A stretch of DNA of 64,000 nt. Source: a beta proteobacterium AAP65. Its GTDB lineage: Bacteria; Pseudomonadota; Gammaproteobacteria; Burkholderiales; Burkholderiaceae_C. The notes under the pieces are model-generated. The model saw only the letters and a program-made list of their open reading frames with translations. It made no database searches and had not been told where the DNA came from. The position numbers and the translations under genes were made by a program. Location: contig LJHW01000006.1 in assembly GCA_001295865.1 (NCBI GenBank), positions 124,001 to 188,000 on the forward strand, read 5' to 3'. The stretch's first letter is position 1; the number at the start of each line of letters is the position of its first letter. Of this stretch, positions 52,041 through 61,221 are shown one piece after another.

Positions 52041-52681
52041 GGCTGCGGCAGTTTCTCTTCCGCGATGGCGGCCTGCACCGCCGGCCGCGCCAGCACCCGC
52101 TGCAGGTAGGGGCCGATGTGCGGGTAGTCGCGCGCCGGCCGGCTGGCGAAGCCGCGTGTCCAGCGGCACAGCATGAAGACCAGCGGGTCCAGCGCGCTGT
52201 AGCCTGCGCCGGTGAACCAAGGGCCGCTGTGGCTGGCCAAGTGCGCGTCGATCTGCACCAGGCATTGCCCCACGCGGGCCTCGGCCGCGGCTTTCACCTC
52301 GGCGGCGCCGGCGGCGTTGCCTTCGGCGGCCATCCGCTCGGGGTAGTAGTAGTGGATCAGGGTGGCTTGCATCGTGTTGCTGGCCCAGAACATCCATTTG
52401 TAGAAATGCGCGCGCTCGGCGCTGCCCAGGGCCGGCGCCAGACCGGCGGCGGGGTGGGTGTCGGCCAGGTGCAGCAGGATGGCGGCGGTCTCGTAAAGCA
52501 CGAGATCGCCATCCACCAGCACCGGGATCAGCCCGTTGGGGTTGAGCCGCAGGTAGGCCGCGCTCTTGTGCGCGTTCTGGTCGCGGTCCACCAGCTGCAG
52601 CTGGAAGGGCGTGCCGATCTCGCGCAGCAGCACGTGGGGTGCAAAACTGGCGTTGCTGGGATAGTGGTGCAGGGTGATCAT
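52031..52681 (-). CDS. glutathione S-transferase family protein
   Basis: A 216-residue cytosolic GST. N-terminal thioredoxin-like domain: ITLHHYPSNASFAPHVLLREIGTPFQLQLVD and the glutathione-binding GLIPVLVDGDLVLYETAAILLHLAD (cis-Pro and the Glu-Thr/Ser motif). The C-terminal helical domain ends VLARPAVQAAIAEEKLP. ATG 52681 is used; the longer frame from 52747 overlaps the divergent OsmC region. Substrate unknown; stress-gene neighbours suggest detoxification. Confidence 0.9.
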   Translation of the reverse strand: MITLHHYPSNASFAPHVLLREIGTPFQLQLVDRDQNAHKSAAYLRLNPNGLIPVLVDGDLVLYETAAILLHLADTHPAAGLAPALGSAERAHFYKWMFWASNTMQATLIHYYYPERMAAEGNAAGAAEVKAAAEARVGQCLVQIDAHLASHSGPWFTGAGYSALDPLVFMLCRWTRGFASRPARDYPHIGPYLQRVLARPAVQAAIAEEKLPQPWV

Positions 52682-52739
52682 GGGTGCGGATGCTAGGCCC
52701 GTGGCAGCATGCGCAGCTGTTGTTTGCATCGAATCCCGC

Positions 52740-53213
52740 ATGTCCACCTACACCGCTCACTTGCGCTGGCAGCGCACGGCCGGCGAAACCTTCACCGACC
52801 AGCGCTACAGCCGCCGCCACACCCTGCAGTTCGACGGCGGCGTGGTGCTGCCGGCTTCGTCGGCGCCTTCGTCTGTGCCCTTGCCGTACTCCGACGCCAG
52901 CGCCGTCGACCCCGAAGAGCTGTTCGTCGCCTCGCTCTCCAGCTGCCACATGCTGTGGTTCCTGAGCCTGGCGGCGGCCCAGGGCCACGTGGTGGACCAC
53001 TACGAAGACGCGGCCGAAGGCCTGCTGGCCCGCGACGCCGAGCAGCGCCTGGCCATGACGCAGGTGACGCTGCGCCCGTCTGTGGCCTTCGCCGCGCCCG
53101 TGCCTGACGAGGCTGCCGTGGCCGCGCTGCACCACGCCGCGCACGAGCGCTGCTTCATCGCCAACTCGGTGAAAACAGAGGTGCGCGTGCTGCCGCAAGA
53201 GGCCCAGCGATGA
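52740..53213 (+). CDS. OsmC family protein
   Basis: A 157-residue peroxidase-fold protein: YTAHLRWQRTAGETFTDQRYSRRHTLQFDGGVVLPASS, then the active-site cysteine in DPEELFVASLSSCHMLWFL, and a second cysteine in HERCFIANSVKTEV. OsmC/Ohr proteins reduce organic hydroperoxides. The second Cys is in the expected place. Overlaps the GNAT gene by ATGA. Divergent from GST with 58 bp between. Confidence 0.9.
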   Translation: MSTYTAHLRWQRTAGETFTDQRYSRRHTLQFDGGVVLPASSAPSSVPLPYSDASAVDPEELFVASLSSCHMLWFLSLAAAQGHVVDHYEDAAEGLLARDAEQRLAMTQVTLRPSVAFAAPVPDEAAVAALHHAAHERCFIANSVKTEVRVLPQEAQR

Positions 53214-53749
53214 GCGCCGTGCCGACCCTGAGCACCCCGCGACTGCGCCTGCGCGGCTTCACCGCGCACGACCTCGACACCTGGGCCGGCGTGTGCGCCG
53301 ACGCCGAGGTGATGCAGCACATCGGTGCCGGCGGCCCGGTGGGCCGCGATGCCGCCTGGCGCCACCTGGCGCTTTACCTTGGCCAGTGGGCGATGCGCGG
53401 GTATGGCGTGTGGGCCGTGGAGCTTCGCGCCGAGCGCCGCCTCATCGGCAGCGTGGGCGTGCTGCACCCCGAGGGCTGGCCGGGCATGGAGCTGAGCTGG
53501 CTGCTGGCGCGCGACGCCTGGGGCCAGGGTTATGCGCGCGAGGCCGCGCTGGCCGCGCGCAGCTTCAGCCGCGACGCGCTGGGCGTGGGCGAGCTCATCA
53601 GCCTGATCCGCCCCGACAACACACGCTCCCTCAGGCTGGCCGAAACCCTGGGTGCGGTGAACACCGGGCCCATCGAGTTCATGGGTGCGAGCGCGCTGCG
53701 TTACCTGCACCCGGCCGCAGCGCCAGTGGCCGGTCGCCTGGGCGGCTGA
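53210..53749 (+). CDS. GNAT-family N-acetyltransferase (RimJ/RimL-like)
   Basis: A 179-residue protein: TLSTPRLRLRGFTAHDLDTWAGVCAD at the start, ELSWLLARDAWGQGYAREAALAARSF with the acetyl-CoA pyrophosphate loop, and LIRPDNTRSLRLAETLGAVNTGPIEFMG near the end. This is the Acetyltransf_3 pattern. The substrate is unknown. Translationally coupled to the OsmC gene. Confidence 0.9.
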   Translation: MSAVPTLSTPRLRLRGFTAHDLDTWAGVCADAEVMQHIGAGGPVGRDAAWRHLALYLGQWAMRGYGVWAVELRAERRLIGSVGVLHPEGWPGMELSWLLARDAWGQGYAREAALAARSFSRDALGVGELISLIRPDNTRSLRLAETLGAVNTGPIEFMGASALRYLHPAAAPVAGRLGG

Positions 53750-54719: not shown

Positions 54720-56204
54720 ATGGAGACTGTTCTCGTCTGGCTCAAGCGCGACCTGCGCCTGCACGACCACGCCCCGTTGCACGCGGCGCAAGGGGCGCGT
54801 GCGGCCGCGGCGCTCTTCGTCATCGAGCCGGCCTGGCTGCAGAGCCCCGAGTTCAGCGCCAGCCACCTGCACTTCACGCTGCAGTGCCTGGCCGAGCTTC
54901 GGCATGTGCTGGCCGCACGCGGCCTGCCGCTGCTGGTGCGCGTGGGCGAACTGCCCGCGGTGCTGCAGCAACTGCATGCCGAATGGCCGTTCCAGCACCT
55001 GCTGAGCCATGAAGAAACCGGCACCGGCTGGAGCTACCAGCGTGACATCGCGGTCGGCCGCTGGTGCCGCGGGCAAGGTGTGGCCTGGCAGGAGTTCACG
55101 CAGACCGGCGTGGTGCGCCGCCTGGCCACGCGCCAGGGTTGGGCCGGCCGCTGGGCGCAGCGCATGGATGCGCCCCTGCTGCCGGCGCCGACGCAGTTCC
55201 ACGCTGCTGCTGCGCTGGCCGACCAGCCCGACCTGCCCACGCTGGCCAGCCTGGGCGTGGCCCCGCTCACGCAAACCTTGCAAGCTGCGGGCGAAACCGC
55301 CGCACGCGCCACGCTGCTGAGCTTCATCACCGGCCGCGGGCGCGACTACCGCCGTGCGCTCAGCAGCCCGCTCACGGCCGAAAGTGGCTGCAGCCGGCTC
55401 AGCCCGCACCTGGCCTTCGGCACGGTGTCGATGCGCCAGGTGCACCAGGCCACCGAAGGCGCGATGGCCAGCACGGCCGACCGCACGCTGGCCTACGCGC
55501 TGCACGGTTTTGCCGGGCGCCTGCGCTGGCACTGCCACTTCATGCAGAAGCTGGAAGACGAGCCCGCCATCGAGTCTCGCAACTTCGCGCGCGCCTACGA
55601 CGGCCTGCGCCCGGGCGACGGCGTGCCCATGGACGAGTTGCACGCCGCGCGCCTGCAGGCCTGGTGCGAGGGCCGCACCGGCTTCCCGATGGTGGACGCC
55701 TGCATGCGCAGCCTGTGCGCCACCGGCTGGCTGAACTTCCGCATGCGGGCGATGCTGGTGAGTTTTGCCGCCTACCACCTGGGCCTGCACTGGCGCGAGC
55801 CGGGGCTGTTTCTCGCGCGGCAGTTCCTCGATTTCGAGCCCGGCATCCACTGGAGCCAGATGCAGATGCAAAGCGGCACCACCGGCATCAACACGCTGCG
55901 CATCTACTCGCCCAGCAAACAGGCCTTGGACCAGGATCCGCAAGGTGAATTCGTGCGCCGCTGGGTGCCCGAGTTCGGCAGCCCCGACTACCCCGCGCCC
56001 ATCGTCGACGAGAAGGCGGCGCTGAAGGCCACCAAAGAGCTGATGTACGGCCAGCGTGCCAGCCCCGAAGCCCGCGCCGAGGCTGACGCCGTGCAGCAGC
56101 GCCACGGCTCGCGCAAGGCCGGCCTGCCGCCTTCGGGCATGAAACGCAGCACGGGGCGCAGCAAGGCCCCGCCAGCCCCCAGCCCGCAAGGCGAACTCTT
56201 CTGA
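54720..56204 (+). CDS. deoxyribodipyrimidine photolyase-family protein, divergent type
   Basis: A 494-residue flavoprotein of the photolyase/cryptochrome superfamily. The N-terminal alpha/beta domain starts VLVWLKRDLRLHDHAPL; the FAD domain has CSRLSPHLAFGTVSMRQV and GFPMVDACMRSLCATGWLNFRMRAM. At the FAD/lesion site, where class I enzymes have GGWQWAAGTG and a related tail, this protein has IHWSQMQMQSGTTGINTLRI (377-396) then DQDPQGEFVRRWVPE. This resembles the more distant photolyase groups, possibly the NewPHL type. It has a basic Lys/Arg/Pro tail after residue 460. First gene of the photolyase operon, 10 bp before the DUF2256 gene. Confidence 0.88.
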   Translation: METVLVWLKRDLRLHDHAPLHAAQGARAAAALFVIEPAWLQSPEFSASHLHFTLQCLAELRHVLAARGLPLLVRVGELPAVLQQLHAEWPFQHLLSHEETGTGWSYQRDIAVGRWCRGQGVAWQEFTQTGVVRRLATRQGWAGRWAQRMDAPLLPAPTQFHAAAALADQPDLPTLASLGVAPLTQTLQAAGETAARATLLSFITGRGRDYRRALSSPLTAESGCSRLSPHLAFGTVSMRQVHQATEGAMASTADRTLAYALHGFAGRLRWHCHFMQKLEDEPAIESRNFARAYDGLRPGDGVPMDELHAARLQAWCEGRTGFPMVDACMRSLCATGWLNFRMRAMLVSFAAYHLGLHWREPGLFLARQFLDFEPGIHWSQMQMQSGTTGINTLRIYSPSKQALDQDPQGEFVRRWVPEFGSPDYPAPIVDEKAALKATKELMYGQRASPEARAEADAVQQRHGSRKAGLPPSGMKRSTGRSKAPPAPSPQGELF

Positions 56205-56214
56205 AGGCCGCGCC

Positions 56215-56379
56215 ATGAAACGTGAAGCGGGCTTCAAGGGCAACAAGGCCGCCCTGCCGAGCAAGCCCTGCCTGGTGTGCGGCCGGCCCATGAGCTGGCG
56301 CAAGGCCTGGGCCAAGAACTGGGACGAGGTGCGTTACTGCTCCGACGCCTGCCGACAACGCAAGAAAGCCAACCCATGA
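56215..56379 (+). CDS. DUF2256 small zinc-ribbon protein
   Basis: A 54-residue protein. It starts MKREAGFKGNKAALPSKP, then CLVCGRPMSWRKAWAKNWDE, and ends RYCSDACRQRKKANP. Four cysteines in a CxxC / CxxxC arrangement should bind one zinc. The family is known only as DUF2256 and is often found beside FeS-type photolyases, as here. It starts 10 bp after the first photolyase stop and its TGA overlaps the next ATG. A role in photolyase folding, metal loading or DNA binding is possible but unproven. Confidence 0.85.
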   Translation: MKREAGFKGNKAALPSKPCLVCGRPMSWRKAWAKNWDEVRYCSDACRQRKKANP

Positions 56380-57911
56380 ATCCATTGCGCCACCTCGTTG
56401 TCGTGCTGGGCGACCAGCTCGACCGCCAGGCCGCGGCCTTCGACGGTTTCGACCCCGCACAAGACGCGGTGTGGATGTGCGAAGCCGCCGAAGAAGCCAC
56501 GCACGTCTGGTGCAGCCAGCAGCGGCTGGCGGTGTTTCTCTCGGCCATGCGCCACTTCGCGCAGGCGCTGCGCGATGAAGGCTGGCCGGTCATCTACACC
56601 GAACAGCACCCGGGCTCCCTCGCCGAGGCCTTGGCGCAGACGCTGGCCGCTCGCCCGGTGCAGGCCGTGGTGATGACCGAGCCCGGCGAGTGGCGCGTGC
56701 AGCAGTCGCTGCAGGCCGCCTGCGCGGCCGCCGGCATGCCGCTGCGCGAAGTGCAAGACCGCCACTTCCTCTGCAGCCGCGCCGAGTTCGCGGCGCATGC
56801 GCGCGGCCGCAAGCAGCTGCGCATGGAGTACTTCTACCGCGAGATGCGCCGCCGCCACCGCGTGCTGATGGATGGCGATCAACCTGCCGGCAGCGAATGG
56901 AATTACGACGCCGAGAACCGCGAAGGTTTCGGCCCCAACGGCCCAGGCTTCGTGCCGCCGCCCGTGCGCACCGCGCCCGATGCCATCACGCAGCAGGTGC
57001 TGGCGCTGGTGCGCGAGCGTTACGCCACGCACCCGGGTTCGGTGGCCGAATTCGGCTGGCCGGTCACACGCGCCGAAGCGCTGCGCGGCCTGCAAGCCTT
57101 CATTGATGAACGCCTGCCGGATTTCGGCCGCTGGCAAGACGCGATGTGGGAAGGCCAGCCCTGGCTTTACCACTCGCACATCTCGGTGGGCCTGAACCTC
57201 AAGCTGCTGCACCCGCGCGAAGTCATCTCTGCGGCCGAAGCCGCCTGGCGTGCCGGGCGTGTGCCCATCGCCGCCGCCGAGGGTTTCATCCGCCAGGTGC
57301 TGGGCTGGCGCGAGTACGTGCGCGGCATCTACTGGCAGCAGATGCCGGGCTACCTGGCACTCAACGAGCTCGGTGCCACGCAAGACTTGCCGGCCTGGTT
57401 CTGGACGGGCGACGTGCCCATGCGCTGCCTGCGCGATGCGGTTCAGCAGACGCTGCAGCACGGTTATGCGCACCACATCCAGCGCTTGATGGTCACGGGC
57501 CTGTACCTGCTGCTGCACGGCGTGGATCCGAAGCAGGTGCACGCCTGGTACCTGAGCGTGTACGTCGATGCGGTGGAGTGGGTGGAACTGCCCAACACCC
57601 TGGGCATGAGCCAGTACGCCGATGGCGGCCTGATGGCCAGCAAACCCTACGCCGCCACGGGCAAGTACATCGAACGCCAGAGCGACCACTGCCGCGGCTG
57701 CCGCTTCAAGCCGGCGGTGCGCACCGGACCGCAGGCCTGCCCCTACACCACGCTCTATTGGGATTTCCTGATGCAACATCAAACGCGTTTCGCCGGCCAC
57801 CCGCGCATGGCGCTGCAGGTGAAGAACGTGGCGCGCCTGGCCGAGCCTGAGCGCGAGGCCATCCGACGCCGCGCCGCGGCCGTGCGTGCCGGGCAGTGGG
57901 ACGCGGCATGA
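56376..57911 (+). CDS. FeS-type bacterial (6-4) photolyase / cryptochrome (FeS-BCP, PhrB-like)
   Basis: A 511-residue protein of the DPRP/FeS-BCP family. It starts RHLVVVLGDQLDRQAAAFDGFD. The four cluster cysteines are Cys351 (VPMRCLRD), Cys439 and Cys442 (SDHCRGCRF), and Cys455 (PQACPYTTL). Their spacing equals that described for Agrobacterium PhrB, including the neighbouring His pair (GYAHHIQ). Other markers are WEGQPWLYHSHISVGLNLKLL, LGWREYVRGIYWQQMP and GMSQYADGGLMASKPYAATG. It should bind FAD, a lumazine-type antenna and a [4Fe-4S] cluster, and repair (6-4) photoproducts. Overlaps both neighbours by ATGA. Confidence 0.93.
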   Translation: MNPLRHLVVVLGDQLDRQAAAFDGFDPAQDAVWMCEAAEEATHVWCSQQRLAVFLSAMRHFAQALRDEGWPVIYTEQHPGSLAEALAQTLAARPVQAVVMTEPGEWRVQQSLQAACAAAGMPLREVQDRHFLCSRAEFAAHARGRKQLRMEYFYREMRRRHRVLMDGDQPAGSEWNYDAENREGFGPNGPGFVPPPVRTAPDAITQQVLALVRERYATHPGSVAEFGWPVTRAEALRGLQAFIDERLPDFGRWQDAMWEGQPWLYHSHISVGLNLKLLHPREVISAAEAAWRAGRVPIAAAEGFIRQVLGWREYVRGIYWQQMPGYLALNELGATQDLPAWFWTGDVPMRCLRDAVQQTLQHGYAHHIQRLMVTGLYLLLHGVDPKQVHAWYLSVYVDAVEWVELPNTLGMSQYADGGLMASKPYAATGKYIERQSDHCRGCRFKPAVRTGPQACPYTTLYWDFLMQHQTRFAGHPRMALQVKNVARLAEPEREAIRRRAAAVRAGQWDAA

Positions 57912-59101
57912 ACGACCTTTTTGACAGCGACGAGTTCGAGCCGAGCACCGCCGCGGCCCACGCCCGCGTGGCCGCGGTGCGACCGGCGGCCTATGCGCGC
58001 ACACGCAATGCCCTGGATGGCGAGGTCACGCGCCTGTCGCCTTATCTCACGCACGGGTTCATCACCTTGCCGGAAGCACTGGCCGGCGTGCTGCAGCGCG
58101 GGCCGCTGCCGGTGGAGCACAAGCTGGTTTATGAGTTCGCCTGGCGCGAGTATTTCCACCACGTCTGGGCGCACGAAGGCGAGGGCATCTTCGAATCGTT
58201 GCACGAAGGGGTCTTGCCCGATGCCGCTTATGCGCACGAATTGCCCGCCGACATTCGACAGGGCGCCACTGGCGTGCCGGTCATCGACCAGGCCGTGCGC
58301 ACGCTTTACGCCACCGGTTACCTGCACAACCACGCGCGCATGTGGCTGGCTTCCTACGTGGTGCACCTGCGCAAGGTGTTTTGGCGGGCCGGGGCCGATT
58401 GGCTCTACGGCCATTTGCTTGACGGTGATCTCGCCAGCAACCATCTCAGTTGGCAATGGGTGGCCGGCACCGGCAGCCACAAACCTTATCTCTTCAATGC
58501 CGAGAATGTCGAGCGTTATGCACCCACGCCCTGGCACAGCCGCGGCACCGTGATCGACACCGATTACGACAGCCTCGACCGCATGGCCCGCAGCCCGCGT
58601 GCCGTGCCCGGCGGGCGCGGTGTGCCGGTGGCCGAGCCGCCCTTGAGTGCCACACCACCGCTGGCGCTGGGTGCTTTGTTCAGCGCGCCCGATGCGGGTG
58701 TGCTGCAAGGCCAGGCCGTGCGTGTGCTGCACGCTTGGGATCTGGCAGCACCCCCGCCTGCAACAGCGGGCCTGCGCAGCGTGGCGGTGTTCGATGCAGC
58801 TTTTCACCGCCGTTGGCCTTGGAACGAAAGGCGCTGGCATTTCGTCAGCGCGGGCTTGCAGGGTCTGGCGCCGGCACAACGCTGGTGGGGCGAAGCGGCC
58901 GAACTGGTGCCTGTTTTGCAGGCCGCCGCCGCTTGCAGCGGCACGCACAGCGCCCATCTCGGCAGCGCCTGGGCAGGCCTGCCGTGGCGGGCCGTGCCGC
59001 GCCTGTTTCGGGCGCCGGCGTTTCGCGCGGCTTCGTTCTCCAAATTCTTCGCCACGGCCACGCGCGGCTTGCGACAGGCGGCTGAATTAGCGGCGGGCTG
59101 A
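57908..59101 (+). CDS. short photolyase-like protein: FAD domain first, extra C-terminal domain
   Basis: A 397-residue protein that lacks the usual N-terminal alpha/beta domain and begins almost at once with the FAD-binding region. Markers: RLSPYLTHGFITLPE (42-56), FAWREYFHHVW (77-87), GVPVIDQAVRTLYATGYLHNHARMWLASY (122-150) and LLDGDLASNHLSWQWVAGTGS (170-190). The FAD pocket therefore looks intact. Residues about 268-395 are a second block (VRVLHAWDLAAP, LRSVAVFDAAFHRRW, HFVSAGLQGL) that resembles the missing alpha/beta domain in a C-terminal place. Last gene of the operon, coupled by ATGA. Its codons are visibly richer in A/T than neighbours. Function may be a photolyase for special substrates or a light sensor. 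Confidence 0.82.
   Translation: MNDLFDSDEFEPSTAAAHARVAAVRPAAYARTRNALDGEVTRLSPYLTHGFITLPEALAGVLQRGPLPVEHKLVYEFAWREYFHHVWAHEGEGIFESLHEGVLPDAAYAHELPADIRQGATGVPVIDQAVRTLYATGYLHNHARMWLASYVVHLRKVFWRAGADWLYGHLLDGDLASNHLSWQWVAGTGSHKPYLFNAENVERYAPTPWHSRGTVIDTDYDSLDRMARSPRAVPGGRGVPVAEPPLSATPPLALGALFSAPDAGVLQGQAVRVLHAWDLAAPPPATAGLRSVAVFDAAFHRRWPWNERRWHFVSAGLQGLAPAQRWWGEAAELVPVLQAAAACSGTHSAHLGSAWAGLPWRAVPRLFRAPAFRAASFSKFFATATRGLRQAAELAAG

Positions 59102-59706: not shown

Positions 59707-59714
<8 letters not shown>
59355..59714 (+). CDS. H-NS family nucleoid protein
   Basis: A 119-residue DNA-binding protein: N-terminal oligomerisation coiled coil ([35 protein letters not shown]), an Ala/Lys-rich linker with AT-hook-like KKRGRK, and the C-terminal DNA-binding block [29 protein letters not shown]. 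This is the Burkholderiales H-NS/BpH3 type. It silences AT-rich DNA. Its stop overlaps the 3' end of convergent glpK by 8 bp. Confidence 0.94.

Positions 59715-61221
<1,507 letters not shown>

Follow-up and report, generated by a model that had tools for sequence, protein, structure and literature searches.

A four-gene photolyase cluster in a relative of Rubrivivax encodes a candidate clamp-tethered flavoprotein

Results

Four adjacent genes encode three photolyase-family proteins and a DUF2256 protein

We analysed a 64,000-nucleotide stretch of the beta proteobacterium AAP65, a relative of Rubrivivax (contig LJHW01000006.1; the whole stretch is called the window, and all coordinates are positions in it). 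Four consecutive genes on its forward strand encode three different photolyase-family proteins and one small cysteine protein. Gene 1 (54720..56204, 494 aa) has the alpha/beta plus flavin adenine dinucleotide (FAD) domain fold of photolyases, in a distinct clade with a rewired active site. Gene 2 (56215..56379, 54 aa), which starts 10 bp after gene 1, is a DUF2256 gene whose product carries the pattern C-x2-C...C-x3-C; gene 3 (56376..57911, 511 aa), which shares a 4 bp ATGA overlap with gene 2, encodes a (6-4) photolyase of the FeS-BCP type; and gene 4 (57908..59101, 397 aa), again with a 4 bp ATGA overlap, with gene 3, encodes a FAD-domain-first photolyase resembling NewPHL/Phr7. The first-pass annotation had described this single-strand arrangement with gaps of 10, -4 and -4 bp, and had read it as a coupled operon that joins three different kinds of photolyase-family protein; both the coordinates and the Pfam domains with their gene order agree. 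It also named gene 2 as a four-cysteine DUF2256 protein of 54 residues, gene 3 as an FeS-type protein with Cys351, Cys439, Cys442 and Cys455, and gene 4 as a short FAD-domain-first protein, all of which are borne out (PF10013 over its gathering score, all four cysteines present, and an N-terminal PF03441 in inverted domain order, respectively).

The 4.84 Mb genome has three PF03441 places, two of them in this operon, and since the linkage also recurs in other genomes, the clustering goes beyond chance. The gene cluster is real and, judged from its sequence, looks like one operon whose genes would be transcribed together. The comparisons below draw on a survey of 250 genomes from the window's family and 248 from its phylum.

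Gene 1 has a conserved and unusual set of active-site residues

The gene 1 protein combines PF00875 (8e-24) with PF03441 (2e-51), and in a tree of FAD domains it forms a separate clade (100/100) outside the class I clade, in a tree for which the program warns of long branches. Residue counts rest on 29 gene 1 rows (the window, all 14 of the 14 named loci and 14 further chosen loci) and use E. coli numbering. The positions E274, N341, M345, N378 and W382 are the repair residues of class I cyclobutane pyrimidine dimer (CPD) photolyases, and N378 sits beside flavin N5. All 29 rows carry the replacements E274R, N341F, M345A and N378H, and all lack W382, with Met at that place in the window; the flavin-binding residues Y222, R236, S238, R342 and D372 are retained in 29 of 29. 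With these repair residues replaced, gene 1 cannot be counted as just one more lesion-type photolyase. We regard it as a candidate flavoprotein of a new active-site type, unlike the photolyases compared, with Phe and Ala in place of the lesion-contacting Asn and Met and His at the N378 place.

Familiar identities were considered and set aside. A class I CPD photolyase is ruled out by the replaced residues and by the tree position, and a DASH cryptochrome by the residues, the tree and a TIGR02765 score of 151.6 bits, below the cut-off of 317.05. For a eukaryotic-type (6-4) photolyase, which has two active-site His at the N341 and M345 places, the sole counter-evidence is that the window has F340 and A344 there, and the tree holds no eukaryotic sequence.

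Gene 1 ends in a motif resembling those that bind the beta clamp

Past its last helix the gene 1 protein looks disordered (pLDDT, the predicted local confidence, is 41-51 from residue 461 on). This tail consists of a low-confidence linker rich in A/R/S/G/P/K (56103..56186, about residues 462-489) followed by the pentapeptide QGELF (56187..56201, residues 490-494), a beta-clamp-binding-like motif that ends the protein. The linker between the last helix and the motif is basic and variable in sequence, and the distance from HGSR to the Q of the motif has a median of 24 aa in the 59 of 60 gene 1 family proteins that have both. For bacterial clamp partners, the available part of PMC9690074 gives a C-terminal consensus of QL(S/D)LF and holds wider variability to be possible.

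Tails were scored with a relaxed pattern, Q..[LMF](F|.[FLW]) within the last 20 residues, and a strict one, Q[LMI].[LF](F|.[LFW]); the clamp pattern was picked with the tails already in view, and the comparisons are descriptive, not blind. The relaxed pattern was present in 57 of 60 gene 1 family proteins, the window included (the remaining three have QLELL, QISLL and QLSLL), and within their last 24 residues all 60 have a Q with L or F three places on, both places being part of the pattern. In 45 of the 60 the protein ends with the motif itself. One locus (L213) has no full gene 1 and was left out of this set. By comparison, the relaxed pattern was found in none of 187 other proteins (gene 4, 0/81; FeS-BCP, 0/45; class I, 0/12; DASH, 0/10; DUF2256, 0/39), and among 585 background open reading frames it occurred in 9, one of which is itself a gene 1 protein, and the strict pattern in 2. 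The contrast between gene 1 and the comparison sets is, at the level of sequence, large. At phylum level 17 tails, which exclude two family members, gave 11 matches to the relaxed and 9 to the strict pattern, and distant relatives have canonical forms such as QLSLF and QMSLF. Two phylum-level relatives (L157 and L158) have two clamp-like tail motifs, KQADLPF and VQLSFDL.

The motif was also considered as a feature of gene 4: three of 27 gene 4 relatives, examined by eye (L016, L022 and L028), end in QAELF, QGDLFHE or QASLFNT, but the relaxed pattern found none in the 81 proteins of the window and named set. To judge by those three ends, FAD-first proteins may also come to bear a tail of the clamp-like kind.

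DUF2256 accompanies an ordinary FeS-BCP photolyase

Gene 3 matches PF04244 (DPRP, 8e-77) and, over nearly its full length, the solved proteins PhrB, CryB and 9hnk (E 1e-148 to 1e-149); its four cluster cysteines align with those of 9hnk, named as a Caulobacter (6-4) photolyase. Gene 2 matches PF10013 (2e-21; 76 bits against a gathering score of 25), and its C19, C22, C42 and C46 are invariant in 37 sequences (alignment A4, made up of the window's protein, those of 31 out of 38 loci and 5 from plasmids). No convincing solved relative of DUF2256 was found (best E 0.22), nor, in literature naming DUF2256, a paper pairing the family with a photolyase.

Each of these two genes is present in 131 of the 250 family genomes, and 121 have both, adjacent or chained in 107. 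Across the 248 phylum genomes, 52 have each and 45 have both (Fisher 2e-34; this and the hypergeometric figures ignore shared ancestry), so that DUF2256 accompanies FeS-BCP phylum-wide, also where the two genes lie apart. Gene 1 is present in 20 of the 248, 17 of which also have DUF2256. This steady company suggests that DUF2256 is a partner protein of FeS-BCP, and how it would act is a guess. A fusion of DUF2256 and photolyase was considered for the loci of G020 and G232, where F precedes D, and at each of them the two genes do not share a frame (worked out by hand from coordinates; these two loci were the extent of the fusion search).

In an Agrobacterium vaccinii plasmid (L170) the DUF2256 gene is some 1.3 kb away from a gene for an error-prone DNA polymerase, and the stretch shown has no annotated photolyase; in a Sphingomonas parapaucimobilis plasmid (L171) it shares 1 bp with the end of aroB and runs convergent to a photolyase gene; and in a Vibrio parahaemolyticus record it is near a 'cryptochrome/photolyase family protein', probably FeS-BCP, that stands beside a DASH gene.

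Gene 4 is a FAD-first protein that alternates with DASH

The only Pfam domain of gene 4 is PF03441 at residues 75-198 (3e-27), with none after residue 198. Its AlphaFold model (mean pLDDT 94.4; pTM, the predicted overall fold score, 0.92) has a C-terminal alpha/beta domain at about residues 255-397 (58670..59098), possibly a relocated antenna-type domain. Its strands (270-274, 290-296, 325-328, 342-346), with helices 307-320 and 330-338 between strands, follow the order of the general topology of an ordinary photolyase antenna domain. In the FAD-domain tree gene 4 belongs to a clade of 16 rows (100/99) that takes in all five FAD-first proteins examined, from Deinococcus, Ruegeria, Novosphingobium and Persicobacter, and is separate from class I, DASH and gene 1, under the same long-branch warning. 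A DASH cryptochrome was considered and rejected, with a TIGR02765 score of 96.3 bits, below the cut-off of 317.05. Residues E274, W277, R278, N341, M345, W359, D372, D374, N378, W382 and W384 are retained in all 11 gene 4 rows (the window and every eighth of 80, set against 12 class I and 10 DASH rows), and because these repair residues are kept, gene 4 looks like a working CPD photolyase.

By hhalign, the C-terminal domain gave a probability of 0.5% against two alphaproteobacterial FAD-first proteins, and the C-terminus of a Deinococcus FAD-first protein one of 94% against a class I antenna domain. Two such Deinococcus plasmid proteins (L054:4821-6194 and L058:3833-5251) have an extra CASCPL..GCPF cysteine motif together with the antenna-homologous C-terminal domain, and are, from their sequences, possible intermediates between ordinary and FAD-first photolyases. 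A VIA-align search with the gene 4 model listed no full-length FAD-first structure, and at least a fifth of its rows cover residues 1-236 only. Two gene 4 matches (G077:C4:93619-94764 and G035:C6:183872-185047) have one internal TGA and are possible broken copies or sequencing errors.

In 12 of the 250 family genomes, gene 1, DUF2256, another FAD photolyase and FeS-BCP stand in a row, and in all 12 the extra photolyase exceeds the TIGR02765 cut-off. DASH, by this threshold, is present in 26 family genomes, and gene 4 is present in 65. No genome has both, against 6.8 expected among the 250 and 11.8 among the 141 that carry DUF2256 or FeS-BCP, and 44 of the genomes with FeS-BCP lack the two. Gene 1, DUF2256 or FeS-BCP is found no more than 1.5 kb away from DASH in 25 of the 26 genomes that have it, and from gene 4 in 39 of 65. 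On a quick tree of the 60 gene 1 proteins the label gene 4 or DASH changes at least four times, and the swap has therefore occurred more than once. These changes also oppose exclusion as a pure clade effect, but the tree was built quickly, and gene 1 could itself have been transferred. NewPHLs are reported, by Emmerich et al. 2020, to stand in for DASH.

The operon is one assortment of a wider kit

Gene orders are given with 1 for gene 1, D for DUF2256 (gene 2), F for FeS-BCP (gene 3) and 4 or g4 for gene 4. The family genomes with gene 4 number 65 and those with gene 1 number 87; these counts, like those for DASH and part of those for the phylum, are among the matches listed, from which the weak end is missing. 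They correspond to 65 gene 4 places at E <1e-70, a second G169 fragment being left out, and to 88 gene 1 places above 190 bits, with two places in G167 and a partial one in G136; FeS-BCP was found in 132 genomes at E 0.001 and in 131 over the cut-off (G188 left out). Alignment A2 covers the window together with 64 out of 80 loci, and A3 the window and all 14 of 14.

All four genes are present in 46 of the 250 genomes. In 16 they chain into a single cluster, with gaps of at most 3 kb allowed, and 10 genomes show them in precisely the order 1-D-F-4. Among the best 80 named gene 4 loci we found the orders D-F-g4 (22), F-g4 (11), D-F-g4-g1 (7) and g1-D-F-g4 (4, of which two have MtfA ahead of gene 1); a further 4 have other mixtures, and in 32 gene 4 has none of these neighbours, some of these loci being on short contigs. 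The nearest named relative among the matches listed is Rubrivivax rivuli KYPY4, whose gene 4 is 87% identical and whose locus has the same four genes with MtfA in front; the four-gene set is also present in Azohydromonas sediminis. The operon represents one combination drawn from a photolyase kit whose core is DUF2256 with FeS-BCP. The earlier description of the set as uncommon is right for the four-gene cluster, which 16 of the 250 family genomes have, and does not extend to the core, whose genes are adjacent in 107; likewise, a neighbourhood search finds the exact set rarely together, but not the core.

Genes around the cluster

An MtfA-like M90 peptidase gene (PF06167; 53811..54665, forward strand) ends 54 bp upstream of gene 1, where the first-pass annotation had placed it. 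The same annotation had allowed that it might belong to the operon, which we do not uphold: MtfA precedes gene 1 at L034, L060 and L067, and the linkage is confined to close relatives. Among nine 1-D-F-4 loci (L034-L042) it is present only at L034, some of the upstream stretches being short, and among the best 80 named gene 4 loci only at L060 and L067. MtfA is probably a neighbour and not a functional part of the operon. Further upstream, OsmC-like and GNAT genes (52674-53749) lie on the same strand with a 4 bp overlap, and the transcript may therefore start further upstream. Downstream are a gene for an H-NS-type DNA-binding protein (PF00816; 59355-59714) and, convergent with it and overlapping its end by 8 bp, a glycerol-kinase-like gene on the minus strand (59707-61221; named by reading). 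Terminator-like sites occur at a frequency near chance.

Discussion

A possible division of labour

We lean, with moderate confidence, towards a photolesion-repair operon with division of labour and one clamp-tethered member. The four genes would be transcribed together. Gene 3 would repair (6-4) photoproducts; gene 4, predicted from its kept residues to be a CPD photolyase, would repair CPDs in single-stranded or unpaired DNA, the job of DASH in sister lineages; and duplex CPDs would be left to a separate class I photolyase encoded on contig C28. DUF2256 may be a small metal-binding partner of FeS-BCP, of gene 1 or of both, in delivery, folding or DNA contact. Gene 1 would be a flavoprotein whose flexible tail attaches it to the beta sliding clamp (DnaN); this would put it where photodamaged template lies exposed, at replication forks and post-replication gaps. 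Since its active site differs from those of CPD photolyases, it might there either repair another lesion or structure, or sense light and damage at the fork. The broader proposal is that gene 1 stands for a class of replisome-coupled, photolyase-family flavoproteins with a C-terminal peptide on DnaN and an active site unlike those of the photolyases compared. They would act on a lesion or DNA structure encountered at forks and gaps, and would be produced alongside (6-4) and single-strand photolyases and DUF2256. We advance it tentatively, with confidence a little short of even.

The first-pass annotation had suggested that the three flavoproteins cover different lesions. This is compatible with gene 3, which is near solved FeS (6-4) photolyases, and with gene 4, which belongs to a FAD-first clade that replaces DASH; it does not hold for gene 1, whose repair residues are replaced.

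Several observations weigh against these proposals. Only 30 of the 60 gene 1 family proteins fit the strict pattern, and the window's own motif fits the relaxed form only, with G instead of the consensus L at position 2 (the 60 proteins have L 27, G 9, R 6 and Q 6 times). The relaxed pattern is missing from 6 of the 17 phylum-level relatives, and the host's DinB and ImuB have no C-terminal match to the pattern, which leaves the motif uncalibrated in this host. A promoter scan found no promoter; LexA control was considered and rejected, its matches in the window being rarer than chance and none lying inside the operon. The gene 4 C-terminal domain gave an hhalign probability of <1% against antenna domains, 26 of the 65 gene 4 copies have no gene 1, DUF2256 or FeS-BCP within 1.5 kb (some lie near contig ends), and the DASH/gene 4 exclusivity is partly clade-structured, with P values that ignore ancestry.

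Alternative explanations

Gene 1 could be a light sensor or regulator of the cryptochrome kind, not a repair enzyme; its altered flavin pocket would give the signal, and the tail or a different partner would link it to the control of replication. Photolyases commonly have paralogs that do not repair, and in gene 1 the residues at E274, N341, M345 and N378 are replaced yet fixed in all 29 rows and W382 is lost in all 29, while the flavin-binding Y222, R236, S238, R342 and D372 are all kept. The companion genes are photolyases, however, and the clamp motif fits a DNA-repair enzyme at least equally, and we hold a sensor to be somewhat unlikely.

Plain co-regulation, with one promoter serving all the light-repair proteins, no further functional link and DUF2256 as a passenger, would accord with the varying order and membership of the loci (1DF4, DF41, 1-D-DASH-F, DF). 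It would not lead one to expect DUF2256 with FeS-BCP phylum-wide even when the genes are apart (45 genomes with both, 52 with each), and we think it unlikely.

As for the tail, it might bind a partner other than DnaN, or be a degron or a terminus of other use, as its shortness, its variable position 2 and the DinB and ImuB ends of the host would allow. Against this, all 60 proteins have the Q and the L or F in the last 24 residues, 45 of them at the very end, distant relatives carry canonical QLSLF and QMSLF, and none of the 187 comparison proteins matches, making another use of the tail quite improbable.

Finally, one light-dependent complex of the three flavoproteins with DUF2256, proposed in the first-pass annotation, is very improbable, as nothing was found in its favour beyond overlapping, perhaps translationally coupled genes, and the genes separate freely, with 30 of the 46 four-gene genomes lacking a single cluster (contig breaks may explain part of this).

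Implications and comparison with known systems

Photolyases are generally thought to locate lesions unaided, by diffusion. If our proposal of a clamp-tethered gene 1 is true, the clamp tail would be a new route of light repair to replicating DNA, and its conservation across the clade would couple repair by light to replication, with the clamp 'tool-belt' gaining a member that uses light. The active site, rewired but strictly conserved, points to an undiscovered photochemical activity or sensor. Moreover, DUF2256, a family without known function, is tied to FeS-BCP phylum-wide, and the repeated replacement of DASH by FAD-first photolyases in the same operon offers a natural test of a shared job on single-stranded DNA.

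Two of the operon's genes fit known kinds, and one links a little-known small family to photolyases. Gene 3 is like the FeS-BCP/CryPro (6-4) photolyases (PhrB of Agrobacterium, CryB of Rhodobacter) over its full length and in its four cluster cysteines, with no difference found; it is an ordinary member by its looks. As for gene 4, FAD-first proteins with a Z-domain are single-strand CPD photolyases in Dinoroseobacter and Methylobacterium (available part of PMC9426592), and NewPHLs likewise (available part of PMC13274461). It is like these NewPHL/Phr7 proteins in its FAD-first order, short C-terminal domain and kept CPD residues, and its clade includes the FAD-first proteins of Ruegeria and Novosphingobium, which stand in for the characterised sequences of D. 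shibae and M. mesophilicum; it differs in forming its own sub-branch, nearer the Deinococcus FAD-first proteins, and in sharing an operon with FeS-BCP.

The pairing of FeS-BCP with a FAD-first protein of unknown C-terminus is already published. Great Lakes (freshwater) Nitrospira have an uncharacterised FAD-first protein adjoining FeS-BCP (PMC9239080, in excerpt), which is like gene 4 in its FAD domain, unrecognised C-terminus and FeS-BCP neighbour and has its best hits in Betaproteobacteria; that pair, likened here by description only, consists of two genes, with DUF2256 and gene 1 not mentioned in the excerpt. Synechococcus PCC 7335 has a UV-B-inducible operon of two photolyases (PMC9649867, in excerpt) whose genes overlap as here, and the excerpt, which counts only two earlier reports of photolyases in operons, mentions no DUF2256, FeS-BCP or FAD-first gene. 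Within the literature searched, the three-photolyase set with DUF2256 appears undescribed.

No report linking a photolyase to the sliding clamp, beta clamp, DnaN or replisome was found in the best-matching literature, including the available part of PMC9534484, a search whose scope left subscription papers mostly outside. Gene 1 differs from class I CPD photolyases, such as E. coli PhrB and the bacterium's own C28 gene, in its separate clade, replaced repair residues and clamp-like tail. It is like the beta-clamp partners ending in QL(S/D)LF in motif type, C-terminal place and flexible linker, and differs from them, none being named as a photolyase in the parts of the literature surveyed, in belonging to the photolyase family. 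Judged on these likenesses, the photolyase-family protein of gene 1 is a candidate for tethering to the clamp, and its active site is new.

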